Positions 2,212-31,174 of a stretch of DNA of 32,557 nt are shown one piece after another. Under the pieces are notes generated by a model. It was given only the letters and a program-made list of their open reading frames with translations. It did no database searches and was not told where the DNA came from. Position 1 is the stretch's first letter; each line of letters begins with the position of its first letter. Position numbers and translations under genes: made by a program. Where the stretch lies: the IMG/VR virus record IMGVR_UViG_3300042691_024752, positions 1 through 32,557 of that record; one strand, written 5' to 3'. This DNA is from a virus.

Positions 2212-2476
2212 ACCGCTCCTCCACGTCATCAAGGGAACACTCCCACAAAATGATGGGGGTGTGTGGTCCGACGTAGGCGCTTTGAATATTGAACTCAATA
2301 TATTCAAGGGCCTCTTCTACTTCCATAGCGTCATCTTTTGTTAGGTTGTCTAACATTTTTTCGCCGCTATAGATCAATCGCTCGACTTGTTGATTGCCGT
2401 GCCAGGTGCAGCACGTTCCTATAAAACAGTCTTCAAAACTGTCCATCTTTAATGGTCTATCTTCATCGTTAATCAA
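2201..2476 (-). CDS. Small acidic conserved-type phage protein, unknown function
   Basis: This is a 91-residue acidic protein with no motif I recognise and no membrane segment. The start is a TTG codon at 2476 that overlaps the primase stop as TTGA. An AGGAG sequence lies six bases upstream, which makes the TTG a better start than the internal ATG at 2446. Two adjacent cysteines and a nearby histidine (CCTWH, about residues 22-26) are visible but do not form an obvious metal site. It is translationally coupled between primase and helicase, so a replication-linked role such as an adaptor is possible. That is inference from position only. Confidence 0.75.
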   Translation of the reverse strand: MINDEDRPLKMDSFEDCFIGTCCTWHGNQQVERLIYSGEKMLDNLTKDDAMEVEEALEYIEFNIQSAYVGPHTPIILWECSLDDVEERYGD

Positions 2477-4002
2477 AATGGGCTCCTCTTCTTTTGCTCA
2501 GGTGTGTTAAAGGGGGCGTCTTGCTTTTTAAATCCAGGCAAGCGCCAGCATCGGGTTGCGCGTCCTTTGAGGAACAGGGGGATAGGTTCACCCCCGAGGT
2601 CTCGCAGGCGTTGCGCCATCTTTGGTGCAGTAAGGCCCACAAAGTTGTTACGCTTTAGGTGTGCTTCAAGGTCTTTCATCCTGAAGTAGGTCTTAGCATC
2701 TTCTTCGTCTGTCCAGGGGCGGCCAAGCAAAATCTCGTCGCGGTCCATGGCCTGTTGTAAGTGCGTACAGAACTCTTCCAACAAATCCACAAAGCGTCCT
2801 GTGATGCTCGTGTCATCCGTTGCCTCGTGAATCTGTTCAGACTCCACCATCTCTTTGAGTAACGCGTTGAGCATCTGCTCCCAGTCCTGCTTGCGCAGGG
2901 TTGGAGGCAAGACGTTGATTTTGTCTACGCATGCCTTTTGAAACATGTTTTGGTTGTAGAGGTGATCGGTATCTAGCTCAATGCGTTTGCCGTTGATATC
3001 TAAGAACCACAGCGGAGGCTCTGAGTTGTATTTGGATAAAGAGGATAGTTGTGGTGCATCAGGTCCGTTGGCCCCGACTCCGTGTTTGCGAGTTCTGCAC
3101 AGGCCTGAATTGCAAAAGCTGTTGAGGGGCGCGTCCTTGCACTTGTACTTGTAATCTTTCTTATTGAGCTGTTTGACGAGTATCTGCACTTCGTTGTTTG
3201 GCAACGGTGGGTGCACGTACTTGAAGTTGTGTTCAATAAGAGGGTTCTCCCAATTTATGGGAAAAACCTTTTTAAGATAAATACCAATGTTGAACAAGGT
3301 ATTGTTGCGGCCCCCTTCGGGAACGCCTTGTGCACATAGGGCCTGCAAGCACGGAGGGCCGTCCGCAAGGGGTTGTTCTGCTTTCTTAGGAGGCTCGGGT
3401 ATTGCTACGTCAGGGTCTTGTATATTGGCCTGGACCAGTTCATAGAACTCCTCTAAGGTAGCGGCACTCCCGTCTTCTTTGATCCCATAGCGCAGGGTTT
3501 GATCCCCTCCGAAATAGGGTAAGTTGAGGAAGTTCCCAGTGTCTCCGCGGTCAACCAAAATCTCAGCTTGCTTGGGGAAGATTTCGCGCCCAGCTTCGCC
3601 CAAGAGTGCGGCAGAGGACTTTAAGTACTCCTGCATGCGTGCGGCAGCAATCGGCTCCTTGGTAAACAAGAAAACGTGCGCGCCACCGGACTTGCTCCTG
3701 CAAACAACAAGAGGCAACTCCAAGCTTTTAATCTTCTTGACTAGGCCAGCATGATCCAGTGGATACTGGTCAATATCAATACAGCCCCAGATACAGGTGT
3801 TATCCGCCCGGATCGGGATAATTCCAAGACTTGGCTCAACACCGGTGAGATGTTTTTCCCAGAGGTCATCGGTGGGTGGTTTACGTACGACAACAGCTTT
3901 ACCTGCTTGTTTTCCGTCCCCTCGAGACCCTTCAATTTTGTATGTTCCATAGGCGATATCTAAACCAGAGAATATGGCCTTGAACCGTTCGATGTCGGTC
4001 AT
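2473..4002 (-). CDS. Archaeo-eukaryotic-type (AEP/TOTE-like) DNA primase
   Basis: The 509-residue protein matches the AEP primase fold pattern. The catalytic acidic pair D76/D78 sits in GCIDIDQY, the nucleotide-binding SGGAH motif is at 105-109, a EIFPKQ segment typical of TOTE-type primases is at about 140-145, and the later D151/N157 region precedes LPYFGG. A helical C-terminal region (about 215-310) follows, with GGRNNTLFN and a cysteine cluster (C288, C297, C302), which may bind zinc. The last 150 residues are not recognisable but look like a helical, winged-helix-type tail. It should make primers for the family A polymerase encoded downstream. A weak GAGAAAG ribosome site and a perfect hairpin (4021-4045) precede the start. 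AEP rather than DnaG-type priming is notable in a podovirus but is known from uncultured aquatic phages. Confidence 0.82.
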   Translation of the reverse strand: MTDIERFKAIFSGLDIAYGTYKIEGSRGDGKQAGKAVVVRKPPTDDLWEKHLTGVEPSLGIIPIRADNTCIWGCIDIDQYPLDHAGLVKKIKSLELPLVVCRSKSGGAHVFLFTKEPIAAARMQEYLKSSAALLGEAGREIFPKQAEILVDRGDTGNFLNLPYFGGDQTLRYGIKEDGSAATLEEFYELVQANIQDPDVAIPEPPKKAEQPLADGPPCLQALCAQGVPEGGRNNTLFNIGIYLKKVFPINWENPLIEHNFKYVHPPLPNNEVQILVKQLNKKDYKYKCKDAPLNSFCNSGLCRTRKHGVGANGPDAPQLSSLSKYNSEPPLWFLDINGKRIELDTDHLYNQNMFQKACVDKINVLPPTLRKQDWEQMLNALLKEMVESEQIHEATDDTSITGRFVDLLEEFCTHLQQAMDRDEILLGRPWTDEEDAKTYFRMKDLEAHLKRNNFVGLTAPKMAQRLRDLGGEPIPLFLKGRATRCWRLPGFKKQDAPFNTPEQKKRSPF

Positions 4003-5733: not shown

Positions 5734-5761
5734 AAATTCTCCTTTCTAAAAATGAATGACC

Positions 5762-5790
5762 AGTGTACACTACGAAAACCTGGTCCGCAA
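5762..5790 (-). promoter_or_regulatory. Candidate promoter with overlapping 10-bp palindrome in the divergent region
   Basis: Reading leftward, TTGCGG (complement of 5785-5790) and TACACT (complement of 5762-5767) are separated by exactly 17 bases, a plausible sigma-70 layout for the minus-strand replication operon. The -10 hexamer is part of the perfect palindrome AGTGTACACT (5762-5771), which could serve as an operator seen by both divergent units. The region 5734-5811 is the only divergent intergenic space in the window. The -35 match is weak, so the call is tentative. Confidence 0.4.
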
Positions 5791-5811
5791 CCCCCAGCAA
5801 GAAAGAAAGAA

Positions 5812-7266
5812 ATGACTGATACTTTTTTACAAACTTATCCCTATAGGAACAAGCCTTTTGTGCATCAACAGGCCTATCTTCAACGTCACTGGAACGCTCC
5901 GGTAGCAGCTTTGTTTGCAGATATGGGAACTGGTAAGAGCTACATGCTCATTAACAATTTCTCAATTCTTTACGACAAAGGAATGCTTAACGGAGTACTC
6001 ATAGTAGCACCAAAAGGAGTGTACCGGAACTGGGTTGATACCGAAATTCCTAAGCATATACCCGAACACGTGCAATATCGTATGGCCATTTGGAATCCTC
6101 AGCCGAGAAAGGCGGAGGCCCAGGCGCTTGATCGTTTGTTCGATATAAGCGAAGACTTAAAGATTTTGGTCATGAACATTGAAGCCTTTTCTACAGCAAA
6201 AGGCACTAAATACGCTAGTCGGTTTTTGTTGTGTCACGACGCAATGATGGCGATCGATGAGAGCACCACAATCAAAACACCCACCTCGGCGAGATCAAAA
6301 AACACAGAGAAGGTGGGCCGTGGTGCGCGGTTCAAGCGCATTGCTACAGGCTCTCCGGTGACCAAGTCCCCGATGGATTTGTATCAGCAGTGTGCCTTTC
6401 TATCTCCTAACTGTTTGAATGCCGCGAGCTACTACTCGTTCCAGGCGCGCTACGCGGTTGTGATTGAGCGTAGCGTGGCCACGCACAGCTTTAGACAGGT
6501 TGTTGGATATCGCCGGCTTGACGAGCTCAAAGAAAAGCTTGACCACTTTAGCTTTCGAGTCAAGAAGGAGGAGTGCCTTGACTTGCCAGACAAGCTCTAC
6601 GTGAAGCGGGAAGTGGACTTGACAGACGAGCAGGTGCGCGCGTATAGGCAGATGAAGGATCTAGCCTTGTCCCAGTTCAAAGAGGGCATCACTAGCACTG
6701 TTAATGCGTTGACGCAGTTGATGCGCTTGCATCAAATAGTTTGTGGCCACGTGAAGTTGGACAACGGGGAAGTGATTGAATTGCCCAACAACCGCATCAA
6801 TGAATTGCTGTCCATTGTTGAGGAGACGGACGGCAAGATCATCATCTGGGCCAACTACCGTCATGACATTGAAGCCTTGAAACTTGCCTTGTCCAAAGAG
6901 TACGGCATGAACTCAGTAGGTATGTACTACGGGGGCATACCTGATGATGAGCGCAAGCGGGTTTTAGCAGAATTTCAGAACCCTGATAGCGAGATGCGCT
7001 TCTTTGTTGGTAACCCTAGCACAGGCGGATACGGACTGACGTTGACTGCCGCGCATACCATGATTTACTACAGCAACAGCTTTGACTTGGAGAAGCGTTT
7101 GCAATCGGAAGACCGAGCGCACCGCATTGGCCAAACAAAAAACGTGACCTACATTGACCTGATTGCCGTGGGAACGGTGGACGAGAAGATCGTCAAGGCT
7201 TTGCGGGACAAAATTAATATCGCCACCCAGGTGATGGGAGAGGACTTTAAACAATGGTTGATCTGA
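5812..7266 (+). CDS. SNF2-family superfamily 2 DNA helicase/translocase
   Basis: This 484-residue protein carries a Q-motif-like KPFVHQQAYLQ, motif I ADMGTGKS at 36-43, and motif II as DEST (D149-E150) followed by TIKTPTSARSK. Motif III is ATGSPVTKSP. In the second RecA domain, motif IV reads KIIIWANYR, motif V contains GGYGLTLTAAH, and motif VI SEDRAHRIGQ is at 432-441. The order and the HRIGQ box are diagnostic of SNF2-like translocases. I chose ATG 5812 (purine-rich GAAAGAAAGAA upstream) over the in-frame ATG 5752, which would take in the divergent promoter area and has no ribosome site. It is followed by an overlapping nuclease gene on the same strand, suggesting joint action on DNA. The role could be recombination, fork remodelling or removal of bound proteins. 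Confidence 0.9.
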   Translation: MTDTFLQTYPYRNKPFVHQQAYLQRHWNAPVAALFADMGTGKSYMLINNFSILYDKGMLNGVLIVAPKGVYRNWVDTEIPKHIPEHVQYRMAIWNPQPRKAEAQALDRLFDISEDLKILVMNIEAFSTAKGTKYASRFLLCHDAMMAIDESTTIKTPTSARSKNTEKVGRGARFKRIATGSPVTKSPMDLYQQCAFLSPNCLNAASYYSFQARYAVVIERSVATHSFRQVVGYRRLDELKEKLDHFSFRVKKEECLDLPDKLYVKREVDLTDEQVRAYRQMKDLALSQFKEGITSTVNALTQLMRLHQIVCGHVKLDNGEVIELPNNRINELLSIVEETDGKIIIWANYRHDIEALKLALSKEYGMNSVGMYYGGIPDDERKRVLAEFQNPDSEMRFFVGNPSTGGYGLTLTAAHTMIYYSNSFDLEKRLQSEDRAHRIGQTKNVTYIDLIAVGTVDEKIVKALRDKINIATQVMGEDFKQWLI

Positions 7267-7952
7267 TACCGATTCGCAAGCTCTACGTATACGAAAAGCT
7301 TGAACAAATAAATGAACCAACGGGACGTGTTTACGGCGATGAAAGATTGCCAAGCGTTACCCGGATTCTGTCTGCCACTAAGGACCGAGCGCACCTTGAC
7401 GCGTGGGTCGCGAGGGTTGGTGAAGTAGAAGCGGAACGTATCAAAAACGAAGCATCCACTGTCGGCACCCACATGCACAACGTCATTGAGCGCATGATTG
7501 CTTATAAGAATTTACCTCGTCCAACCAACTGGCTTATGACTAAGGGTTATGAGATGGGCTATAAGTTAGTAAACACTTACTTCTCTCATATCTCTGAGAT
7601 ATGGGGATCAGAGGCTACTCTTTATTATCCCGGGAAATACGCAGGCACAACGGACTTAGTGGGCATATATAGGGGAAAACCCGCTATTGTTGACTTTAAG
7701 CAATCGGTCAAGCCTAAGCGTGCGGAGTGGATTCAAGACTATTTTCAACAACTTGCCGCCTATGCTTTGGCTCATGACATTGTCCACGGCACGAATATCG
7801 ATTTTGGTGCGGTGCTTATCTGTGTGCAAGATGGCACAACGCAAGAATTCACGACCGCCGGCCGTGAATTTCAAAACCACAAAGATGAGTGGCTAAAGCG
7901 CGTGGAGCTGTTTAGGCAGCAGGCTGCTGTCCCTGCGCAAGCATCGGACTGA
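7254..7952 (+). CDS. RecB/Cas4-like PD-(D/E)XK nuclease
   Basis: This 232-residue protein has the features of the RecB-type exonuclease family. A GTHMHNVIE segment (71-79) supplies the upstream histidine/glutamate, GTTDLVG carries D134, the core IVDFKQSVK carries D147 and K149, and QLAAYALA (166-173) gives the QhxxY motif. No iron-sulphur cysteine set is visible, so it is closer to MGME1 or phage single-domain exonucleases than to Cas4. It starts inside the end of the SNF2 helicase gene (13-base overlap, with AGGA upstream), so the two are translationally coupled. A helicase plus processive exonuclease pair fits phage recombination or host DNA processing. The 3' end overlaps the convergent virion gene by 41 bases. 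Confidence 0.87.
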   Translation: MVDLIPIRKLYVYEKLEQINEPTGRVYGDERLPSVTRILSATKDRAHLDAWVARVGEVEAERIKNEASTVGTHMHNVIERMIAYKNLPRPTNWLMTKGYEMGYKLVNTYFSHISEIWGSEATLYYPGKYAGTTDLVGIYRGKPAIVDFKQSVKPKRAEWIQDYFQQLAAYALAHDIVHGTNIDFGAVLICVQDGTTQEFTTAGREFQNHKDEWLKRVELFRQQAAVPAQASD

Positions 7953-10900
7953 TGGTGTCGTTAGGGAACAGCGACTGAAACATCTCTCGACTCACAGACG
8001 ACTGAGAACCGGCCCCTGGTGCTTGCGCACCAGGCTTCTTGTCCAGTAACCCTGGTACACCTTTGGAAGGCGCGGTAGGAGGCAGTTTACGAAGTTGTTG
8101 CGCAGCAGGCCCCGTAGGAGGCCCCGTTTGTATCAAATTCGTCCTAGGCACTTCGCTCTCGTAAATACTCAAAGGCGCTGGAATGCGTGTGGCTATCGTG
8201 CGACCAAGCAATTCGGCAAAGTTTGACGCATAGTTGGCTTCTTGTTTTTTATCTACGCCACGGCGTAACAAGGCCGCCATCATCTGAGGGTCTTGCAAAG
8301 CTTTTTCTATGGTACTGCGCACCATAAAGTTGGGCATTTTGTCAAAGATTTCACGCACATATTTCGAGCCGGCAGAAGCGGCAATCAATGAGCCTGGTCC
8401 ACCGCCAGACACACTAGTGCCGATGTTTGCACCAACGATACGCATGGCCAACTCTTCTACCGCACCAGCGCCGTCCAGGACTTTGTTGAGCTCATTCTTG
8501 TTGCTCAAAGCCTTTTCAACCCGCATCATTGGAATCATTAGACGCTTGAGGTTGTTCACCTCTTGCTGGGTAATGATGTTTTGACTGCGCATGATATTGA
8601 CAATCGAAGGCTGATTAGCGCCTAGAGGCTTTAACAATGCATCATTGAATGCCTGGATGCTGAAGCGGCCATCTCCACCTGCCTTGGTATAGGCGTAATC
8701 AAACAGGGTGGACTTCAATCCGTTGACAGCATCGGGCCCGCCAGCACTTGCAAGTTTGACCAAACCAGAAATGTTCTTGACAGGAAATTTGCTGTTGAGT
8801 GCATCAATAACAGCAGTGGTTGGGTTCTCAAACTTCAACAGTTGTGCAAACGCTGACTGATTTGCAATAGTCTTGTTGATTTCGCTGTTTTCGTCCCGTA
8901 TTGCACGAAAGGCAAGTTCAGCTTTCTTTGCGTCTTGCAAGTCAGCATAGATACCCAGCTTCTCCAGCATAGGTTGATTTTCAGCCGCAAATTTCTCCAA
9001 CATGCGAGGATTCAAACGACCCGTTATAGGGTCAATTGATTTTGCTGCCATCAATCGATACACACGGTCTTGTGCGTCTCGGATAGAGACCACGCTAATA
9101 TCTGCCAAATCGGCTTGCGGCTTTAATGCCAAAGCCAATTTACTGCGCTTACCATATTTGTTGACTGCATCGTCGTATTGAGTACGCATGAATTTCACTG
9201 CGTCTTCAACCTCATTCATACGCATTGCAGTTACATCGGCGTTGGAGCCAAAAGCCTTTGTCACCAGTATCTCTGGGGGCATGCGCTCTTTTCCTGCCAC
9301 TGTCTTTGCTCCGGGGCCCGTGATGCTTGCCTCACTGGCAAAGGTGCGAGTGAACGTATCGTTCAAGGCCTTAGAAAAACCTCTAGCCTGATCGAATGCA
9401 GGAGCCTTTAATGTCTCCAAATCTTTGAGGATTCCCTCAGCAAGCGTGCCATAGAACTTCGCATCGCCCATCTCGCCTTTGCCTGCGGCTTCGCGTGCAA
9501 GAGACAACAGATTGCTTCGATAGTTGACCATCTCGCCAACATCCATATCTTTAAGCCTTGGAACAAATCTGTCAGGCACTTTTCCTGTTTCCATGAACTC
9601 ATCCGTATTTCGGCCAAGTTTGTACTTCATGACGGAGGCATCATCAATGCCAAAAGTGCTTAGGATGTCCTTAACCAACTTTGGCGTGGTGTTCTTGTAA
9701 ACAACATCCGCGATCCCTAAGGTTGCATCTAGGAACGCACGACTTGCGTTAGTAGGTACGATTTCTGCGCCCTTAACCGTTGTTTCACGCAGAGTAATCA
9801 GGGGCCACTTGCCCGTCTTCTCGTAAATGGCTTCGGCCTGTGGGCCTTCCATTGGCACCTTCTTAGGGGGTCCTTGAACACGTTTGACAGGGGCGATCTG
9901 GCGAAGACCCTCGGTCCACAGTTCGTTTTCCATGTCCCGAGCTTGGCGTAATGCAAGCTCTGTTTCAAACTTGACGAGGTCGCCAATCTCTCTACGAGCA
10001 CCGGGCGTATCCTTAGAGATAGCCGCTATCTTTTTAGCAGCAGTCGCATCTGCCGCTGCAAGACGGCCATTGAGCATGGCCGTATAGGCGTCTTGTTCCA
10101 CTTGTGCCGCTTTGCGCAAAGCATCGGGAGTGCCTACTTCTCGCAACCTTTGAACCAACAGCTTATATGCAAGCAAGGAGTCTTCTCCCTGCTTGACTGT
10201 TTGCCCAGAGAACTCCGCATTGGTGCGAGCAAGAGATGTCTCTAGCGCAGACAAAGTGATGTTGCCTGTTTTCTGCGCAGCAGTTGGTGTGGCCCCCGCT
10301 GGAGCGGATTGCTCTAAGCGGCGAATAAGCAGAGGAATATTTTCTCCGGTGCCTTCCAAAATCTCATACAAACGAGCGGCGGCTTTCCCTTCTTTGGCCG
10401 AGGCACTGCGGGAGTTCTTGAGGTTCTTTGCCCAGTCAGTGACGTCACCTACTGAATTAACTACAAAGCGGCCTGGGGCAAAGATGCCTCCGATTACTTC
10501 TGCGCCAAAACGCACACCTTTTTCGCCAGGGAAAAGTTCCTCTGCAAAGAAGGCCCCGGTCCCTGCTCCGGTGGCCGCGACTGTTTCAGCAGCGCCAAAG
10601 CTAATTGGAGTTTTACGCGCTGATTCTCCTATGGAAGAGATGAACCGTGAGACGCGGTTACCGGTAAATTTAGGAAGGAAATAGGCAGAAGGAGAGAAGG
10701 CAATGGAGGTACCAAACGTGCGACCACCTTCTCGTACAGAGACGAGGTCCTCACGAAGGGGAGGCTGTTCGTAATCTTCGAACAGTTTTTCCAGGCCGTA
10801 GTTGACCGCCATACCGCCCAAAAGTCCTGCACCAAAACCCAAAGGAGGACCGAGAGGAGCAAGAGGCCCCATAAAAGGCGCCGCTATAGTACCTGCTCTC

Positions 10901-11160
10901 AGGCCCAACATAGACCCAGCAGAGATAGGAATGCTCTCTCGCATGCCAATCTTGATACCTTGGCCAAGAGCCTCGGCCTTTTCGCCAAGTGTTGGATACT
11001 CCGACTGAGAGATTTGCTCCAGCGCCTTTAACTGATCCGCTGCGTTAGCGGCGGGAACAGTACGACGTCCTTGAAGTAGCGCAGGCGGAGCTGTTCCACC
11101 CCCTGTGTCAGGTAGAGTCAATGCATCAAGTTGCTTTTGAATCTCTTCAGGAGTTGCCAT
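7912..11160 (-). CDS. Very large internal virion (ejection-type) protein
   Basis: The product has 1082 residues and is the last gene of the leftward virion operon. Residues 76-121 are a glycine- and proline-rich hydrophobic stretch. A second small-residue-rich region lies at about 170-220. A long, mostly helical and charged body follows, and the C-terminus is low in complexity and rich in Pro, Gly and Ala. Size, amphipathic helices, hydrophobic glycine-rich segments and position beside other Ala/Gln-rich virion proteins resemble podoviral ejection proteins (the P22 gp16/gp20 and T7 gp15/gp16 functional class). I see no lytic transglycosylase motif. No motif identifies it outright, so the role is inferred. 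Its 3' end overlaps the plus-strand nuclease gene tail to tail. Confidence 0.65.
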   Translation of the reverse strand: MATPEEIQKQLDALTLPDTGGGTAPPALLQGRRTVPAANAADQLKALEQISQSEYPTLGEKAEALGQGIKIGMRESIPISAGSMLGLRAGTIAAPFMGPLAPLGPPLGFGAGLLGGMAVNYGLEKLFEDYEQPPLREDLVSVREGGRTFGTSIAFSPSAYFLPKFTGNRVSRFISSIGESARKTPISFGAAETVAATGAGTGAFFAEELFPGEKGVRFGAEVIGGIFAPGRFVVNSVGDVTDWAKNLKNSRSASAKEGKAAARLYEILEGTGENIPLLIRRLEQSAPAGATPTAAQKTGNITLSALETSLARTNAEFSGQTVKQGEDSLLAYKLLVQRLREVGTPDALRKAAQVEQDAYTAMLNGRLAAADATAAKKIAAISKDTPGARREIGDLVKFETELALRQARDMENELWTEGLRQIAPVKRVQGPPKKVPMEGPQAEAIYEKTGKWPLITLRETTVKGAEIVPTNASRAFLDATLGIADVVYKNTTPKLVKDILSTFGIDDASVMKYKLGRNTDEFMETGKVPDRFVPRLKDMDVGEMVNYRSNLLSLAREAAGKGEMGDAKFYGTLAEGILKDLETLKAPAFDQARGFSKALNDTFTRTFASEASITGPGAKTVAGKERMPPEILVTKAFGSNADVTAMRMNEVEDAVKFMRTQYDDAVNKYGKRSKLALALKPQADLADISVVSIRDAQDRVYRLMAAKSIDPITGRLNPRMLEKFAAENQPMLEKLGIYADLQDAKKAELAFRAIRDENSEINKTIANQSAFAQLLKFENPTTAVIDALNSKFPVKNISGLVKLASAGGPDAVNGLKSTLFDYAYTKAGGDGRFSIQAFNDALLKPLGANQPSIVNIMRSQNIITQQEVNNLKRLMIPMMRVEKALSNKNELNKVLDGAGAVEELAMRIVGANIGTSVSGGGPGSLIAASAGSKYVREIFDKMPNFMVRSTIEKALQDPQMMAALLRRGVDKKQEANYASNFAELLGRTIATRIPAPLSIYESEVPRTNLIQTGPPTGPAAQQLRKLPPTAPSKGVPGLLDKKPGAQAPGAGSQSSVSREMFQSLFPNDTISPMLAQGQQPAA
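8015..8034. terminator. Candidate terminator hairpin downstream of the plus-strand pair
   Basis: CCTGGTGC (8015-8022), loop TTGC, and GCACCAGG (8027-8034) form a perfect 8-bp stem on a tetraloop, 62 bases after the stop of the plus-strand nuclease gene. It is followed on the plus strand by the moderately T-rich CTTCTTGT. It lies inside the convergent virion gene, where it encodes a PGAQAPGA stretch, so it could simply reflect coding sequence. A dual use as terminator for the rightward transcript is plausible. Confidence 0.35.
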
Positions 11161-11163
11161 GGT

Positions 11164-13125
11164 TTATTTCTTCCACTTTGATTGTGTTCCGTTCCACAAG
11201 AAGTTTGTCCCGCTTGGTAGCGCTTGCACTTCCTCAATGGTATATACACGGGGAGGAATCCCTGCCTTCTTTTGGAAGTTGCTTATGTCTCTCGTCACGT
11301 TAAGCGCGTTTCTTCTTGCATCAACAGTATATGAGTCGTTAGTTGCATCTGCCTGAGCGGCTTTCAGCTTTTGCATCAAGAAGTCATCAATACCTACCAT
11401 GCGGCTACCAAGAGAAGCAGGGTTGTCAAAGAACGCTGGACCAATATCCAACTCTTTTTCAATCGCCTTCATCTCCGTAGTGGCGTAATGGGGGTTGTTT
11501 TGCAATGACTTAATAAGGTCTCGCACTGCCGTATCAAAGAACGTACGTGCTTCATCTGCTTTAGCGTCCACTTGGCCAAAGACTCGCAAAACAGGCATTG
11601 TCTTGATGTATGGAATGGGGCCTGCAACTAGGCCTCTTTGATTCCATAACGTCTTTTGGTCTTTAGGTGTATTGAGTGCTACGTATGTATCCTTTGCCTC
11701 AGCAGGTACGTCGGCAGGCACCGTTCCAGGAGCCCCACTGACCACATTTGAAACAGGAGCTTTTTCTGCACCAGGTTTTGTAGCGGCAGCTGGAGCAGCA
11801 GGAGGTGTTCCGCCACGTAGATCAAGTGCAGTTCGTACAAAAGAAGGCAAATCATTGCGCACCTCTACGTAGCTCTTGTTTCCTGTGACGGGGTCCACTC
11901 TTTCCACCATTTGTGCTTGCGTATAGTTTGTCACGGCAGACAGGAAAACTCGTTCTTGTTCTGGAGTGAGTTTTCCAGCAGCGTAGTCCGGTGCCATTGT
12001 GGAGAAGATGTTTAAAGTTGCGCCAGTTACTCCTGCACCAAAGGGCCCTTTGCCCTCTGCCGCGGTCTTTTTCGCCTCTTGTTTGATGATCTCTCCAAAC
12101 AGCGCTCTCTTTTGCTTTAGAAGCTCATTGTTTGCTGCTTGGATTTGATCAACATCTTTCTCAGATGCCTGCAACGCGGCCATCTTGATAGCGCGCTCGC
12201 CCTTATCAATCTCCGCTACGCGGGCCATCATGTCTTGCGGTAGTGTTCTGGCAGCACCTGCCAAACGAGACACAAAACTTCCACGCAATGGACGGCCTTG
12301 ATCATCCACATTAGAGCCAAAACCAAAGGCCCGTTGGCCGAGAGACATCAACAGTTGTGCCTCACTCGCGCCTTTGGTGTCTCCCAAAATTGTCCGATAA
12401 GCAGGCTCACGTGCACGTGTCAGTGATGCCAAATCAGGCAAGCGCTGGGGTTGTTTTGCAATTAACTCTTGCATGCCTTGTTTGGCAGCAGTAACTACTT
12501 CTTGAGGATATTTCAGCAAAGGCTCGTCTTTTTCAGCAGGGGTTACACCGTCCTCACCGGACCCCGCTTGAAAATTTTGGACATAGCCTCCTCTTGCCAT
12601 AGCAATAGGAGGAGCGCCAGCAATACCCCCTGTCTCAGGAGGTGGAGGGCCAGTCATGTCTTGTGGGCCGCCACCCATCATTGCCGCCATCATTTCAGGA
12701 GGCATTTCAGAAGCGCCTGGGGCCATTGGAGGAGCCATTGGTGCGCCTGGAGGCATAGGAGGTGGAGCCATTGGAAGCTGTGGCCCTTGCATCAATTCAG
12801 CCGAAGCAGGAGCAGCACCAATGCCTTGCTGTTGAGCAAGCACAGGCTGCAAAAGGGCAAGCACTTCTTGTGGGGTATCTTTGGCCGCACGATATCCGAC
12901 CATGTCGGCTAGTTCGTCCACACGGGCATCGATGGAGCGCATATCCCCACGTAAGTTGTTCATCAAGATTTCAGGAGACTTTGGAGAACGGCCCATGACC
13001 TCGGAGGCAACACGGTCTTCTTCGTCCATGTCCTCCATGTCATCATCTTCCATCTCCATCATGTCCTTAAACCCGGCCATGATGCCGACGTTTTCAACAT
13101 CATTTTCTACCATTTTGTTTTTCAT
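11164..13125 (-). CDS. Pro/Met-rich virion-associated protein with coiled coil
   Basis: This 653-residue protein starts at ATG 13125 with GAGGG five bases upstream. The N-terminus (about 20-40) is a strongly acidic Met/Asp/Glu cluster. Residues about 105-170 are a Pro/Met/Ala/Gly low-complexity linker. A MARGGYVQNFQAG motif then begins a helical region with a long charged coiled coil (about 310-370). A second Pro/Ala linker lies in the middle, and the C-terminus is a compact domain with IEEVQALPSGTNF. The MARGG-type motif is a pattern I associate with structural proteins of uncultured aquatic phages. A role as an internal or tail-associated virion protein fits the operon, but no function is proven. 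Confidence 0.62.
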   Translation of the reverse strand: MKNKMVENDVENVGIMAGFKDMMEMEDDDMEDMDEEDRVASEVMGRSPKSPEILMNNLRGDMRSIDARVDELADMVGYRAAKDTPQEVLALLQPVLAQQQGIGAAPASAELMQGPQLPMAPPPMPPGAPMAPPMAPGASEMPPEMMAAMMGGGPQDMTGPPPPETGGIAGAPPIAMARGGYVQNFQAGSGEDGVTPAEKDEPLLKYPQEVVTAAKQGMQELIAKQPQRLPDLASLTRAREPAYRTILGDTKGASEAQLLMSLGQRAFGFGSNVDDQGRPLRGSFVSRLAGAARTLPQDMMARVAEIDKGERAIKMAALQASEKDVDQIQAANNELLKQKRALFGEIIKQEAKKTAAEGKGPFGAGVTGATLNIFSTMAPDYAAGKLTPEQERVFLSAVTNYTQAQMVERVDPVTGNKSYVEVRNDLPSFVRTALDLRGGTPPAAPAAATKPGAEKAPVSNVVSGAPGTVPADVPAEAKDTYVALNTPKDQKTLWNQRGLVAGPIPYIKTMPVLRVFGQVDAKADEARTFFDTAVRDLIKSLQNNPHYATTEMKAIEKELDIGPAFFDNPASLGSRMVGIDDFLMQKLKAAQADATNDSYTVDARRNALNVTRDISNFQKKAGIPPRVYTIEEVQALPSGTNFLWNGTQSKWKK

Positions 13126-24638: not shown

Positions 24639-24809
24639 TTATCCTTGTGCAGGTTCGTCAGCAGGTGTAGGCGTGTTGCCTTCAGCCACCCACTTTAAAT
24701 AGGCTTGGTAGTCTGTGTTGTCTTCATGCACGGGAAAACTGGTTACTGAACCATCTTCGTTTGTACGAATTATTCTGTTATAAAAATTTGATAATTTGTA
24801 TGTTGTCAT
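24639..24809 (-). CDS. 56-residue fibre-linked small protein
   Basis: ATG 24809 overlaps the upstream fibre stop as TAATG. The frame ends in TAA at 24639, four bases before the next fibre ATG. The translation contains RIIRTNEDGSVTSFPVHEDN followed by TDYQAYLKWVAEGNTPTPA, a pattern common in small proteins encoded beside phage fibres. The DNTDYQAYLxWVAEGNTP motif is close to that of tail fibre assembly or attachment proteins. Function is inferred from context. Confidence 0.75.
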   Translation of the reverse strand: MTTYKLSNFYNRIIRTNEDGSVTSFPVHEDNTDYQAYLKWVAEGNTPTPADEPAQG

Positions 24810-26071
24810 TACAGCTCCGCAGAAACATCAACGTAAGAAGATGAAATTTGTAGATAGAAAAGGTTTGGGTTTGGTGACCAAGTTGCACCCGTTAAAACTA
24901 ATGTTACAGACGAAGCCGATGCAGTAGTATTGATTCCAACAGTTCCTGTTTTTGTTACATTACCCGTCACAAACGCAGAATCTAACGTCCAAGATGTTGG
25001 GTAATTGGCGTTTGTCAAATTTGTTGTTACGGATGTTGCGGTTGTACGCATCACAACAGGTAAAGATGGCGTGATTGCAATATTTCCAGTTGTTCCTGAT
25101 TGAACAGGTGACATTTGCGGATTCCATGCAAGACCATCAGAAGAAGATGAGTTTTTCCAACGCACAAAATACCGCTGACAAAGTTGTATTTCGGTAGTTA
25201 TAGGGCGGTAGTCAAACGATGTTGCTGTTGAGCCTACCTCTAATTGTGTACCCGTGATATACCAATTAGCACCATTGGTAGCGACTAATTTGGTTTCACC
25301 AGTAACTGAATAATAATCTCCAGAAGCCCAAGCGTTTGCCGTATTTAAATAATTAGACCCAACTCCAAGTGACCAACGAATAATAATTCCTCGGCCGTTA
25401 TCGGTTAACCAAGTGCCAGTAGTTTCACCAGCAATAGTTATTGTTTTTTGTTCCCAAGTATTTGCAGAAGAAATTGTGTAACTAAAAGGATATGCTCTTG
25501 TGTTTCCACTATTTTCTAATGTTCCACCAAAAGTCCCAGTTAGTGAACTACGCACCCAAAATGATAATGTTACAGTTTTAGCGGATGCAGTTCCCCACCC
25601 AAAATCTGCAATGTTATATCCTTCAATTTGCTGGCTTAATTCATAAGCCTCTGCCGCACCAACAGTTGTAGCCGCCAAAGATGTAGCCAAAATAGAATTT
25701 ACAAATCCTGTTGGCGCAGTTGTGCTTTGTGATAAATTAACTTTACTACTATTAGATACAGCTAACCTAAATCTATCTGCTGGATACCAAAGGTTAGTGC
25801 TAGTTGCAGTTGTTCCTCTTTGTGCAATCACCATTGCGCCATTGATGATGCGGTTCTTGAAGCCGTAGTAACCAGTACTTGTTCCAGTGCCACCATAAGC
25901 CTCTGCAACCGTGCCAGAAGATATTGCGCTACCACTAACGCCTGTGCTAGATGCTGTAGTCAACATCGTGCCACTTGTGGCGGGTAGTGTGACTGTGACT
26001 GTCCCCGCTGTAGCAGGTGCAGATAGGGTTACTGCCCCAGATGTGTCGCCATTAACAACAATGCTTGCCAT
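24809..26071 (-). CDS. Tail fibre/receptor-binding protein
   Basis: The 420-residue protein has an N-terminal VVNGDTSGAVTLSAPATAG segment and a GGTGTSTGYYGFKNRIINGA motif. A large beta-rich module follows: EGYNIADFGWGTASAKTVTL, SFWVRSSLTGTFGG, TWEQKTITIAG, then YITGTQLEVGSTATSFDYRP and LCQRYF. This is a carbohydrate-binding-like fibre module widespread in aquatic phages. The distal 100 residues differ in style and may be the exchangeable tip. AAGGA precedes ATG 26071. The DNA here looks more AT-rich than neighbouring structural genes. Confidence 0.8.
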   Translation of the reverse strand: MASIVVNGDTSGAVTLSAPATAGTVTVTLPATSGTMLTTASSTGVSGSAISSGTVAEAYGGTGTSTGYYGFKNRIINGAMVIAQRGTTATSTNLWYPADRFRLAVSNSSKVNLSQSTTAPTGFVNSILATSLAATTVGAAEAYELSQQIEGYNIADFGWGTASAKTVTLSFWVRSSLTGTFGGTLENSGNTRAYPFSYTISSANTWEQKTITIAGETTGTWLTDNGRGIIIRWSLGVGSNYLNTANAWASGDYYSVTGETKLVATNGANWYITGTQLEVGSTATSFDYRPITTEIQLCQRYFVRWKNSSSSDGLAWNPQMSPVQSGTTGNIAITPSLPVVMRTTATSVTTNLTNANYPTSWTLDSAFVTGNVTKTGTVGINTTASASSVTLVLTGATWSPNPNLFYLQISSSYVDVSAEL

Positions 26072-26080
26072 AATTTTTCC

Positions 26081-27196
26081 TTAAACGACTACCCAGCGAC
26101 TACCGCTAGATACTGTTACTGCTTGACCACTCGCCACCGTGACGGGGCCAGATGACATGGCACTATACCCAGCGGCGATTGTGTAGCTTGTAGCCACCGT
26201 CTGGCTGTTCACCACAATACCGTTTAATGCCACGGGGACTGATGCTTGCAATTCACCAGTGCTTGGCTTGTACAGTAGTTTAGCGTTGCCTGTGTATAAA
26301 GTGGTTGCAGTGCCTGATGTAGCACTTGCAAATAATGGGTACAAATTACTTGCTGTACTTGTATCATTGCTTAGGCTTGCACCACCCACTGGGTTCCATG
26401 CGGCGGATGATCCACTGTAGCCTTCAAACTGATTGGTAGTAGTGTTGTAGCGCAACATGCCAGTAACAGGACTGCCCGGCTGTTGGCCTGTAGTACCCTT
26501 GCTAATTAGCAACGCACCTGTTGAGCTAAATGTTGAGTCTAGCGTTGCCGTTAAAGCACCAGTGACAGCCGCCGTTCCAGTCACGGCTAAAGATGTGCCG
26601 TTCCAAGTCAGGTTAGAAGACTGTGCAATTACGCTAGTTGACGAGGCAAAGAAAATACCAGAATTAGTAAACGTTGTAAGGTTTGTACCGCCATTGGCCG
26701 TGCCTAAAGTTCCGGCAAGGGTAATAGCACCAGTTGTTGCTGTGCTTGGGGTAAATCCAGTTGTTCCAGCACTAAACGAAGATGCCGTGGCCGTGGTTGA
26801 AACTTTAACAAAGTCAACCCCATTCCAAGCGCAAACCGCAGACTCGTTAGCAACAATGGTCACGCCCGTTGTTGGCCCTACGCCCACCAACTTAATAGAC
26901 TGGGTGCTTCCTGTTTTGTTAATGACGATGTAGGTCTTAGACTGTGCTGGCGCTGTGATAGTCCTTGTCACTGTTCCGCTTGCTGTCCATAAGAGGATAG
27001 CCTGCCTAGATGTATTGGCCGCCCCGGTTGTGGTGGTCAGGGTTACATCTGCATCAGAGGAGATGGTAGTAGTACCTGCTACGGCCGTGTCTAAAAGGCT
27101 AGTAATCTCATCGTTGACTACTGTTCCCCATGTATTGGCCTCCGTCCCTGTAACGGGTTTGGCTAGGCCAAGAAGAGTGGTGTAATTGATTGTCAT
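26081..27196 (-). CDS. Tail fibre protein with virion-attachment N-terminus
   Basis: The 371-residue protein opens with INYTTLLGLAKPVTGTEANT and WGTVVNDEITSLLDTAVAGT, an N-terminus typical of phage fibres. A beta-rich Thr/Ser repeat region follows, then GTTGQQPGSPVTGMLRYNTT with FEGYSGSSAAWNPVGG, a shaft-to-tip junction seen in many fibres, and a small C-terminal domain ending GSRWVVV. GAGGA lies upstream of ATG 27196. As first of the four fibre genes transcribed it may be the proximal fibre or adaptor. Confidence 0.78.
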   Translation of the reverse strand: MTINYTTLLGLAKPVTGTEANTWGTVVNDEITSLLDTAVAGTTTISSDADVTLTTTTGAANTSRQAILLWTASGTVTRTITAPAQSKTYIVINKTGSTQSIKLVGVGPTTGVTIVANESAVCAWNGVDFVKVSTTATASSFSAGTTGFTPSTATTGAITLAGTLGTANGGTNLTTFTNSGIFFASSTSVIAQSSNLTWNGTSLAVTGTAAVTGALTATLDSTFSSTGALLISKGTTGQQPGSPVTGMLRYNTTTNQFEGYSGSSAAWNPVGGASLSNDTSTASNLYPLFASATSGTATTLYTGNAKLLYKPSTGELQASVPVALNGIVVNSQTVATSYTIAAGYSAMSSGPVTVASGQAVTVSSGSRWVVV

Positions 27197-27206
27197 CTTG
27201 TTTTCC

Positions 27207-28103
27207 TCATGCCGCTATGCGTGTCCATACATTTGTTTGTGCGTCATTAACTTGGACCCAATTAGAAGACTGCGAATCATTGACATTTTGCCAGTTAACT
27301 GATTGACTGTCATCCACAATTGTCCAAACCAAGAGGCTACCAACCTGGCCAACCCCCTGTACGCCTGTGACGTTAACTTCAACGCCAATTCCAACCAATA
27401 CTGTCCCAACGCTGCCCGTGGCCAAAAGGCCTGTAACCGGGACATTTGTTGTAACTTCCACTTGAGGAGTGCCAACCTGGCCAGTTCCTTGAACACCTGT
27501 AAGAGATACCGCAGCGTCCCCAGTAGACGTAACCGATCCAACCTGGCCAGTTGCCTCCACTCCTGTCGCAAAGACATCAGCATTCGCAGCAACCGTAGTT
27601 GCCCCAACAAAGCCTGTTGCTTCCACTCCCGTGAGGACCACCGTTGTTGCGGTGCTAATAGAGACTGATCCAACTTGACCCGTCCCCTGTACTCCGGTGG
27701 GCTCGACGTTTGCGCCTCCCGTCGCTGTGGCAACGCCAACAAAGCCTGTAGCGGATACCCCCGTGAGAGATACATCAGCACCTGCTTCAACAGTAACTGA
27801 TCCAACTTGGCCTGTGGCAGATACCCCAGTGAGGCTGACGTCAGCTGTACCAACAACAGTGGCTGTACCGACCGATCCTGTAGCCTGTAGCCCAGTAACG
27901 GAGACATCGGCCCCCGCTTCGACACTGACCGATCCAATCTGCCCTGTTGCAGACACTCCGGTAACACTGACATTGGCATCTGCCGTTGTTGTAACTGATC
28001 CAACCTGCCCTGTTGCAGACAGCGTGACCGCACCCTCGCCCCACGGGGCCTCTCCCCAGGCTTGACTACCAAATCCGCCAAGTGCAATCCGTACATCAGC
28101 CAC
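27207..28103 (-). CDS. 22-residue tandem-repeat virion protein with Trp-rich C-terminal repeats
   Basis: The 298-residue protein starts with GTG at 28103, with GAGG five bases upstream. After a 27-residue GGFGSQAWGEAPWGEG head come ten exact-length 22-residue units of type VSATGQVGSVTVEAGADVSL plus TG (residues 28-247) and a partial eleventh. Three 11-residue units of type DSQSVNWQNVN follow (265-297). The repeats predict a beta-solenoid or stacked beta-hairpin shaft. Composition (Val/Thr/Gly/Ala, almost no Lys) suggests an extended extracellular fibre or collar. No catalytic motif is visible. It lies between a structural gene and the fibre cluster. Confidence 0.7.
   Translation of the reverse strand: MADVRIALGGFGSQAWGEAPWGEGAVTLSATGQVGSVTTTADANVSVTGVSATGQIGSVSVEAGADVSVTGLQATGSVGTATVVGTADVSLTGVSATGQVGSVTVEAGADVSLTGVSATGFVGVATATGGANVEPTGVQGTGQVGSVSISTATTVVLTGVEATGFVGATTVAANADVFATGVEATGQVGSVTSTGDAAVSLTGVQGTGQVGTPQVEVTTNVPVTGLLATGSVGTVLVGIGVEVNVTGVQGVGQVGSLLVWTIVDDSQSVNWQNVNDSQSSNWVQVNDAQTNVWTRIAA
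27213..27311 (-). repeat. Three 33-bp units encoding 11-residue Trp repeats
   Basis: The C-terminal end of the repeat protein holds three consecutive 11-residue units (DSQSVNWQNVN, DSQSSNWVQVN, DAQTNVWTRIA). Each has one tryptophan. Such D-x-Q-x-x-W tails are seen at the ends of phage fibre-like proteins and may cap the solenoid or bind a partner. Confidence 0.7.
27363..28022 (-). repeat. Ten tandem 66-bp degenerate repeats inside a virion gene
   Basis: Ten in-phase 66-base units encode 22-residue repeats with conserved (A/G)TG-x-VG and (T)G positions. Unit length is constant while bases vary, so they are old repeats under protein selection. Because 66 is divisible by three, long open frames appear on both strands here and are shadows. 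The array offers scope for copy-number change by recombination. Confidence 0.85.
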
Positions 28104-28112
28104 TTACGCCTC

Positions 28113-28550
28113 TTAGGCAATACGAAGTATTGCGTTTGTTGCGTCTGCTGTTGGGAAAATAATGGTGAAAGTGCCCGCTGTGGAGGTCTTTGCTCCACCA
28201 AAATCCAAAATACACACTGAAGGGTCACCTGCGGCACTATCGTTATAAATCATCGCTCCATAGGCCGTGATCGTGGCACTTGTGAAGGACAAATCAGCAA
28301 AGTCCGTGAAAGCAGTTGTGCTAGAAGAGGTTGGAGTCACGTTTGTTAACGCACCACCGCCCGCAGAGTATGTGCCAGAGGCGGCCACTTCATTGGTGGC
28401 TGTATACGCTGTTGTTGCCGCAGTAAAAGAGGCACTGTTATCGTATAAAGCCAGTTTAAAAGTGTTTCCTGTACTGGTTGTAAAGTTGTGCACAGCCCTC
28501 ATCAGCTCTACTTTGAAGCTGGTACACATGAAATTTCCTGAAAATGCCAT
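28113..28550 (-). CDS. Conserved small virion structural protein
   Basis: The 145-residue protein reads MAFSGNFMCTSFKVELMRAV, then TFKLALYDNSASF, a beta-rich core with DFADLSFTSATITAYGAMIY, and a DFGGAKTSTAGTFTIIFPTA segment before the NAILRIA end. This is a common phage structural protein. AGGAG precedes ATG 28550. It has no defined location; head decoration or collar is possible. Confidence 0.7.
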   Translation of the reverse strand: MAFSGNFMCTSFKVELMRAVHNFTTSTGNTFKLALYDNSASFTAATTAYTATNEVAASGTYSAGGGALTNVTPTSSSTTAFTDFADLSFTSATITAYGAMIYNDSAAGDPSVCILDFGGAKTSTAGTFTIIFPTADATNAILRIA

Positions 28551-28552
28551 TT

Positions 28553-28840
28553 TTAATCTCCTAACAAATGAACGAGGTTGGAATGACCTGCTTCGCGCAG
28601 GCGAATTGCGATAGTTGCTCTATCCTGATTTACGGCTTCTTCAAGATAGGTCTTAATTACGGAGCGCACAGCGCCACGAAAAGCAATGGCCTGATCCCGA
28701 ATTGCAGGATGAGACTCACTTCCAACGTAAAGAATCTTCTCGATGGCCCGATCGGCCAACTCATCAGGAGTCCAGCCCCGCCGATTGGTAGTGGCGACGC
28801 CTACGCTGCCTAATAACACAGGAGATTGAGTGCCTATCAT
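28553..28840 (-). CDS. Small helical conserved phage protein
   Basis: The 95-residue protein has RRGWTPDELADRAIEKIL and HPAIRDQAIAFRGAVRSVI segments, with a basic helical end. I recognise the RGWTPxELAxRA pattern from phage structural operons, without known function. Its ATG overlaps the upstream adaptor stop (ATGA). It may be a head-tail assembly factor. Confidence 0.65.
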   Translation of the reverse strand: MIGTQSPVLLGSVGVATTNRRGWTPDELADRAIEKILYVGSESHPAIRDQAIAFRGAVRSVIKTYLEEAVNQDRATIAIRLREAGHSNLVHLLGD

Positions 28841-29493
28841 GGTCCTGGTGACTCCGATTTAAGTTGAATACGTACCATGCCATCACGGTATTCATCACGA
28901 CGGCGACGACCTTGTTGCTCGATGCCAAGTCCTTGGAGAGCCTGCTTGTAACTTGCGTCAAAAGTAGCCATCATGTCAGGCGGCCCCTTAGTGTAGCTAT
29001 ACGCCTGGATTAAACAAGCGTAAAACAACGCTTCAGGAGCGTTTGTGCTAATCCACGTTGTAGTATTCGTGGAGGAAAGTTGAGGAGGACGATAGATGTA
29101 GCCCAGTTCAACTGCCAACGCAGAACTTGGAGTAGGAGCAATGTAGAAAGTGTTTTCATCCCACACAGAATAGTATTTTGGAATACCCGTCGTAGCCCCA
29201 TTAGGCCAGTACTCTTTCATAAAAGAAGTATCCCGAAACTCCAAGAAGATTTGATCTGTTCCTGAAGTAACGATAAGATATCGATGAGTCAAAATATCAC
29301 TGGGAGCAGTTAGAAATTTGTTGTTAGCCGTTAAATTGGCCGTCACTTCAAGCTTAAACACATCCAAGTCAATATCCCGCAAAATACGGTTCTCTGCAAA
29401 AGTAATAAACACGTTTATTACCGCATCAGTGAAGACGTTTGCGCCTACTTCCGTGTAGTTACGTATATTTGTTACAAGTTCGTTGTACGTCAT
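28837..29493 (-). CDS. Head-tail adaptor-like protein (SU10 adaptor type)
   Basis: The 218-residue protein begins TYNELVTNIRNYTEVGANVF, with FAENRILRDIDLDVFK following, and includes IPKYYSVWDENTFYIAPTP and LGYIYRPPQLS with a helical C-terminus (YKQALQGLGIEQQGRRR). This N-terminal helix, beta middle and basic helical tail is the pattern of phage adaptor proteins that sit below the portal. It is coupled with the genes on both sides by ATGA overlaps. Confidence 0.7.
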   Translation of the reverse strand: MTYNELVTNIRNYTEVGANVFTDAVINVFITFAENRILRDIDLDVFKLEVTANLTANNKFLTAPSDILTHRYLIVTSGTDQIFLEFRDTSFMKEYWPNGATTGIPKYYSVWDENTFYIAPTPSSALAVELGYIYRPPQLSSTNTTTWISTNAPEALFYACLIQAYSYTKGPPDMMATFDASYKQALQGLGIEQQGRRRRDEYRDGMVRIQLKSESPGP

Positions 29494-29843: not shown

Positions 29844-30509
29844 TTACACCCCTAGGTCAGGAACGAAGTTAACGCTGGCAGTGTCTCTATCTTCCATCGC
29901 GGCACGCAAGAAGTCTTCTTCGTAGATCGCCTTGAGCGCACCCGTACGCTCAGGAGAGTACTTGAGAGATATGTAATACGCCAGTCCTGATGTCAGGCAT
30001 GGCAAGAATCTAAAGTTAACGTCTGATGTATTGGTGTATGCACCAGCATCTTGGATACGACGAATGCGGTAATACACAAACGTGTAGTTTTGATCCGCCG
30101 CCGGGTAGAAAAACACCTTTGGCACATTCGTTCTCTGTACATAGTACTGAGCAGGCCGCGCTTGAGAATTCTTATCCGGGATATTTAAATACTCAGAACG
30201 GCTGATACGGTCAATTGTGATATCTGTCAAGATTCCCTGTGACGGGTCTCGTATAACAGCGGACAAAACATTAACCGTGTCAGTATCCAAAGATATTTCT
30301 TTAATACCCTGGGTTATGGCATAGGTGGCTTGCTCGATTGTCCAAAGATTAAGCCCCCTATTTGCCCAATCCAGGAACAACAAATTGAGAGAGCGACGCG
30401 CAGACTTGAGCTGGTAGCCGTTTGTGCTACGTATGCCGCATCTCTCAAATGCTTCTTCGATCAGATCGTCTATCGACAGATCAAAGGTTGTTGTTCCTGA
30501 GGTGGTCAT
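29844..30509 (-). CDS. Head-tail connector/tail accessory factor (P22 gp4-like)
   Basis: The 221-residue protein begins with FDLSIDDLIEEAFERCGI, LKSARRSLNLLFLDWANRGL and LNLWTIEQATYAI, a signature of podoviral tail accessory/connector proteins. A beta middle with PAQYYVQRTNVPKVFFYPAA and a helical tail (ERTGALKAIYEEDFLRAAME) complete the fold pattern. It should join portal and tail hub. A weak ribosome site precedes ATG 30509, which overlaps the previous gene. Confidence 0.78.
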   Translation of the reverse strand: MTTSGTTTFDLSIDDLIEEAFERCGIRSTNGYQLKSARRSLNLLFLDWANRGLNLWTIEQATYAITQGIKEISLDTDTVNVLSAVIRDPSQGILTDITIDRISRSEYLNIPDKNSQARPAQYYVQRTNVPKVFFYPAADQNYTFVYYRIRRIQDAGAYTNTSDVNFRFLPCLTSGLAYYISLKYSPERTGALKAIYEEDFLRAAMEDRDTASVNFVPDLGV

Positions 30510-31174
30510 TCTTTGTATAAATTATTAAAGGTTTGAGCCGCATCCATATACGAATCATCTTGCTCTGCACAGTGAATCCACTGGCCAGGCCTAAAATCAG
30601 GGGCACCCTCTCCGGTCTGCCAAAAAGCAGGGCTCGTTGCTCGAACTCTATTGTTTGGCAGTGCCACAATATTTCCTGTCCATTTCCCTGCATCCGTCAA
30701 AGTCAAAACATGACTTTGTTTGTGCTGTGCAGGGCAGTCCGCTACTTCGCTCTCCGTGTAGTCCACCGTGAACATATATCTTCCGGTGTAAAACTCTCCA
30801 TCAATCTTACATAACCACGGACTAGGGCTTGTGCGCGCAAATTTTATTACTGTGTGGGTGTGAGAAGGACAATCCCAAGGCTGTGCCAAATGCGTAGGCA
30901 TACGCTCTGGCCACTCCTCCAAAGGGATATCCCCCACCAACGCAGTAATAGGCATTCTTGCCCACATTGCCCCACCATGAACGTTCTCTGACCCGTCTAC
31001 GTGGCTTTCACACCCTGTAAAAACAAGTTGAAAACTCAAGCAACGATCCGGCATGACATTTACTGCAATAGCGTTTGCATGTAAATACTCGCCTTGGTAC
31101 TTCTGATGCATGTGCGTAAACTCACGTCTAACCCAGCATTTGAAATACGGAATGTTGCTTATCAGATAAGACAT
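30506..31174 (-). CDS. Conserved HMO-2011/pelagiphage-type protein, unknown function
   Basis: The 222-residue protein begins YLISNIPYFKCWVRREFTHM and is rich in Trp, His and Cys, with repeated HxH and CPSHTHT patterns that could bind metal. The LISNIPxFKCWVRREY start is one I associate with a conserved protein of HMO-2011-like and pelagiphage genomes encoded near the portal/adaptors. No function is known to me. It may be an assembly factor. It lies immediately upstream of the connector gene in transcription order. Confidence 0.62.
   Translation of the reverse strand: MSYLISNIPYFKCWVRREFTHMHQKYQGEYLHANAIAVNVMPDRCLSFQLVFTGCESHVDGSENVHGGAMWARMPITALVGDIPLEEWPERMPTHLAQPWDCPSHTHTVIKFARTSPSPWLCKIDGEFYTGRYMFTVDYTESEVADCPAQHKQSHVLTLTDAGKWTGNIVALPNNRVRATSPAFWQTGEGAPDFRPGQWIHCAEQDDSYMDAAQTFNNLYKE

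Follow-up and report, generated by a model that had tools for sequence, protein, structure and literature searches.

A family of 22-residue repeat proteins in the tail-fibre region of aquatic phages changes its unit number mainly in steps of three

We analysed a 32,557-nucleotide stretch of viral DNA (IMG/VR record IMGVR_UViG_3300042691_024752, hereafter the window) that encodes a repeat protein within a tail-fibre/adaptor cluster. Gene order in the window lineage is SU10-type adaptor, 95-aa protein, 145-aa protein, repeat protein and tail-fibre genes (Table 1). The repeat gene had been described in the initial annotation as a neighbour of fibre genes, and it does lie in the tail-fibre region, downstream of the adaptor gene.

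Table 1. Features of the repeat protein gene and its neighbours in the window
Feature	Position	Strand	Remarks
298-aa repeat protein gene	27207-28103	minus	GTG start; AGAGG RBS-like stretch between preceding stop codon and GTG
N-terminal aromatic-Gly cap, residues 9-24	28032-28079	minus	GGFGSQAWGEAPWGEG; well kept in relatives of the window's class
Worn first 22-residue unit, residues 23-44	27972-28037	minus	Profile match; first two residues are the cap end
Ten exact 22-residue units, residues 45-264	27312-27971	minus	Family consensus VSVTGVQATGQVGSVTVTADAN; two predicted strands per unit
C-terminal Trp ladder, W260/W271/W282/W293, 11-residue spacing	27210-27326	minus	Partly overlaps the last unit
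Conserved 145-aa partner gene, upstream	28113-28550	minus	In 152/154 WG-cap loci
Conserved 95-aa gene, flanked by the adaptor and 145-aa genes	28553-28840	minus	In 135/154 WG-cap loci
SU10-type adaptor protein (PF24175)	28837-29493	minus	In 148/154 WG-cap loci
Tail-fibre-like gene downstream	26081-27196	minus	N-terminal 'GTEANTWGT' domain resembles HTVC023P gp69
Tail fibre protein (phrog_4492)	24809-26071	minus	E 6e-46

Homologues of the 145-aa gene were found in Pelagibacter, Roseobacter, Microcystis and, in part, Gordonia phages, and several of them adjoin a tail-fibre gene. The gene 3' of the repeat protein often carries a 'TGENxGTWG' type N-terminal domain; phrog_31104 was detected in this gene at four sampled loci and in HTVC023P gp69, whose gene directly follows the repeat protein gene of that phage. 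In phage SU10, gp11 is the adaptor to which the long tail fibres gp12/gp13 are fixed, and their gene region likewise lies just downstream of the SU10-type adaptor; a 22-residue repeat plan or a 66-residue step is not described for these fibres in the text examined (PMC9509320). By sequence, the window protein matched none of the fibres in PHROG or the PDB.

Elsewhere in the window, a 222-aa protein encoded just upstream of the adaptor region (30506-31174, minus) matched phrog_3704 'ferredoxin' (E 3e-27) and is a possible auxiliary metabolic gene product. The window also encodes, at 2473-4002 (minus) and 5752-7266 (plus), a primase-like protein whose domain is of the AEP-TOTE primase type (PF22548; phrog_21866), and a helicase of the SNF2 type. 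Proteins of 1082 aa (7912-11160, minus) and 653 aa (11164-13125, minus), with no PHROG or Pfam match, adjoin a DNA-ejection-like protein (phrog_4287) and are possibly ejected virion proteins.

Comparison of the window gene with orthologues at 76-91% DNA identity placed most differences at codon position 3, with dN/dS of 0.15-0.23, and the frame at 27207-28103 is therefore a coding gene under purifying selection. The overlapping 340-aa ORF (27215-28237) received no such support. The GTG start reported earlier was confirmed, and the protein, at first called nearly lysine-free, contains no lysine at all. Its ten units of exactly 22 residues were also recovered as annotated; the degenerate unit before them had not been counted, and the array amounts to 11 units by profile. 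The three 11-residue Trp units placed after the array are a fair description of the C-terminus, which has four Trp 11 residues apart, the first of them (W260) inside the last 22-mer. Self-identity of the protein at shifts of 22, 44 and 66 residues was 0.41-0.44, as compared with a maximum of 0.21 over 1000 shuffles. The unit DNA is well diverged, with the best pair 74% identical and a mean of ∼53%.

AlphaFold2 predicted strands of 8-9 residues about every 11 residues, two per unit, which falls within the two or three regular short strands per ∼22-residue repeat that we took to mark a beta-solenoid. The monomer prediction proposed in the initial annotation is regular and confident in the middle of the protein (pLDDT 85-94 over residues 60-180), whereas the N-cap and the Trp ladder stay below 50; the mean over the whole model is 72. 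The 22:11 length relation, read at first as one structural rise shared by array and cap, agrees with two predicted strand-turn halves of ∼11 residues in each unit; an equal rise in the cap stays conjectural, the ladder being of low pLDDT and its Trp number varying independently of the array (2-6 in relatives). Foldseek against solved structures returned weak matches only (best E 0.28), mostly beta-helices, and one uncharacterised protein of an uncultured phage in BFVD matched at TM 0.80. Three units per turn were not visible in the AlphaFold model output. Covariation between units showed coupling at shifts 1-3 that declines with distance, with nothing special at shift three, a test that is not decisive between a two-sided solenoid and three units per turn.

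The window protein belongs to a large phage family that is undescribed in the libraries searched, as the initial annotation had supposed. It gave chance-level scores only and no match in Pfam, PHROG or NCBIfam, and no tail-fibre family match in these libraries or among PDB sequences. PDB sequence and profile searches hit designed proteins only, which matched through composition; Escherichia phage Goslar 'tail fiber repeat protein' (E 6e-4) was dropped as a weak low-complexity match, and the single stretch of it that was translated contained stops in its frame. No account of tail-fibre repeats of 22 residues or of solenoid type came up in the literature searches. Scans of IMG/VR yielded several hundred loci, and a bacterial and archaeal genome collection gave just two MAG contigs with family matches. 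Most members follow one plan: an N-cap, which is mainly of two kinds (aromatic-Gly, 'WG', or MxGFxP), precedes the units and the Trp ladder. Modules similar to the aromatic-Gly cap also occur inside the arrays of other members. Arrays with the MxGFxP cap belong to other phages and, at the loci sampled, adjoin tail-fibre, tail-spike or baseplate genes.

Among named phages, HTVC023P gp68 (QGZ17697.1), a hypothetical protein of a cultured ocean Pelagibacter phage, is a clear member: like the window protein it has units in near register (eight of them), a Trp ladder with 11-residue spacing and a tail protein gene next to it, but its cap is of the MxGF type and its gene lies away from the 145-aa gene of that phage. 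The hypothetical protein gp68 of Pelagibacter phage HTVC027P (QGZ17849.1) is a probable member by synteny; it has WG modules and its gene sits between a 145-aa homologue and a tail protein gene, whereas its units are degenerate and were read by eye only. Identity for these two proteins is ∼33% or less, and no description of them as repeat proteins was found in the literature examined. Phage DSL-LC04, of the proposed 'Dishuiviridae' (PMC10611076), shares with the window the gene order adaptor, 95-aa, 145-aa and repeat protein; the latter (WJZ48131.1, 39.5% identity, 99% query coverage, annotated as hypothetical only) differs by several WG modules ahead of and within the array. In Manatee Spring contig MW202675 (L475:1-642), a 7-unit array ends in a WNGSAW-type Trp module, common to Rhodobacter phage proteins, instead of an 11-residue ladder, and the C-terminal module therefore appears swappable. 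Two further arrays are long: L138 has 25 units with a 198-bp period, and L080:2467-5142 has ∼380 aa of unmatched sequence followed by 22 units with an internal WG module.

The number of repeats in a protein is generally expected to drift one unit at a time. We counted units in a sample that after expansion held 242 complete distinct ORFs and 185 gap-free arrays. The comparison of repeat number among relatives, which the initial annotation had suggested, showed that the number varies, with 8 (59 arrays), 11 (75), 14 (8), 17 (1) and 20 units (1) together making up 144 of the 185 gap-free arrays. The length change foreseen by that annotation through recombination of 66-bp units was borne out in that relatives differ in repeat number, but length usually changes by three units (198 bp) at once. 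The distance from the N-cap to the first ladder Trp fell in main classes of 171/237/303/369 or 189/255/321 aa, i.e., at 66-aa spacing, and 146 of the 154 arrays with a WG cap share two phases modulo 66. Within the largest cap cluster (68 members) every difference in unit number is a multiple of three, and the same is true of 26 of 27 members of the window's own cap cluster (8, 11, 14 and 17 units, and one array of 16, L044). Other cap classes occupy other phases, again mostly with three-unit steps. Arrays off this series are L044, L074 (10 units), L257, L544 and many with the MxGFxP cap, including many members of a mixed cluster of 52, where the rule is weakest; some of the latter are off it perhaps because their caps differ in length. 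L132 was rejected as an exception: it has a second internal WG cap, and measured from there its array is on the series. The HTVC023P-type pelagiphage set was fetched separately, after the three-unit rule had been noticed; of the 31 scored distinct sequences 29 fit (8 units in 19 of them, 11 in the other 10) and two had other numbers, while 31 further loci were unscored, some being truncated and most having an N-terminus outside the cap pattern.

Copy-number changes were placed by Fitch parsimony on a neighbour-gene tree (FastTree, adaptor and 145-aa proteins, 136 taxa). We obtained 40 changes, comprising 14 of -3, 17 of +3, one of -6, one of +9 and seven others. Multiples of three therefore account for 33 of 40 inferred changes (p = 2e-10 against an expectation of 1/3, for events that are not fully independent); a switch from one cap class to another may lie behind several of the seven non-three changes. 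Assembly collapse of repeats is unlikely for most arrays, since their units are too diverged, and is possible for L293, L044, L094 and L138.

The step of three could be mutational in origin, if ancient three-unit super-repeats recombine so that 198-bp blocks come and go and the protein tolerates any number. Recent duplications fit this: near-identical DNA blocks within arrays were found in four cases, all strongest at the three-unit shift, and L293 contains a near-exact 66-residue block in three copies. Most arrays, however, lack such a super-repeat, their units being no more similar at shift 3 than at shift 2, so that homology alone does not explain the step. In the window array mean unit identity is flat across shifts 1-7, and the same series recurs across separate lineages whose unit sequences differ considerably. 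We regard a purely mutational cause as quite improbable. We are equally sceptical that the preference is mere history, with ancient alleles of 8, 11 and 14 units shuffled among phages by recombination and few independent events behind the counts. Recombination may indeed make the neighbour-gene tree and the array number disagree, some branches have low support, and a count made by hand, with one step for each class, placed just 15 of 22 on the series (p = 9e-4, the mixed MxGFxP cluster being excluded). Yet three-unit steps arise separately in cap classes of distant sequence (9/12, 12/15, 13/16 and 8/11/14), and the recent three-unit duplications are visible in the DNA.

Other readings concern what the protein does. 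Many phage fibres are trimers, and the initial annotation pictured a shaft or collar fibre; in a homotrimeric shaft with one rise per 22-residue unit, copy number would merely set fibre length. Adenovirus-type triple beta-spiral shafts are trimeric, with ∼15-residue beta repeats, a conserved Gly and a repeat number that sets shaft length; the window protein shares the beta repeats with conserved Gly, but its units are of 22 residues. The adjoining fibre genes and the beta-rich repeats of the predicted model favour a homotrimeric shaft. C3 symmetry, however, would not be expected to favour steps of three, as any unit number leaves a symmetric end, and we consider this reading rather unlikely. 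Slightly more doubtful is a receptor-binding or decoy surface, in which function would lie in the variable outward side of the units, length being secondary. Among orthologues, variability is twice as high at outward as at inward positions (1.40 vs. 0.71 bits), but dN/dS of ∼0.2 gives overall no sign of diversifying selection, and the conserved parts are the unit spacing and the caps, the N-cap and the Trp ladder being better conserved than the array in the orthologue comparison. A secreted curli-like amyloid outside the virion is very unlikely. The curlin repeat of CsgA/CsgB (PF07012) likewise has ∼22 residues per unit and a strand-turn-strand plan, and curli systems were reported in HTVC023P-type phages (PMC9599517). 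Against this, PF07012 had no match in the window record at E <= 1 and none in Pfam scans of the proteins, the secretion pore CsgG (PF03783) had none in the possibly incomplete 32.6-kb record, and the gene stands in a structural cluster, adjoining the adaptor in nearly all WG-cap loci.

We think it somewhat probable that the protein is structural and belongs to the tail-fibre apparatus, forming a modular arm or spacer of beta repeats that has a structural period of 66 residues and changes length mostly in whole turns. In the virion, this arm would lie with the tail adaptor on one side and the more distal fibre proteins on the other. Each 22-residue unit would consist of two strand-turn halves with a hydrophobic/Gly face buried and a variable polar face on the other side; the WG or MxGFxP cap would open the array and the Trp ladder would close it. 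If the chain regains its orientation only every three units (66 residues), the arm would mostly tolerate length changes by whole three-unit turns, through gain or loss of 198-bp blocks, and the step would have a structural cause. More tentatively, and with doubt outweighing confidence, we propose that one chain, not a symmetric trimer, turns once per three 22-residue beta units, so that arm length is quantised in 66-residue turns; this would be an undescribed fibre architecture common to several phage lineages, including that of HTVC023P. The three-step preference, kept across diverged phage lineages, is a clue, drawn from sequence only, to an unsolved structure, whose period it predicts in advance.
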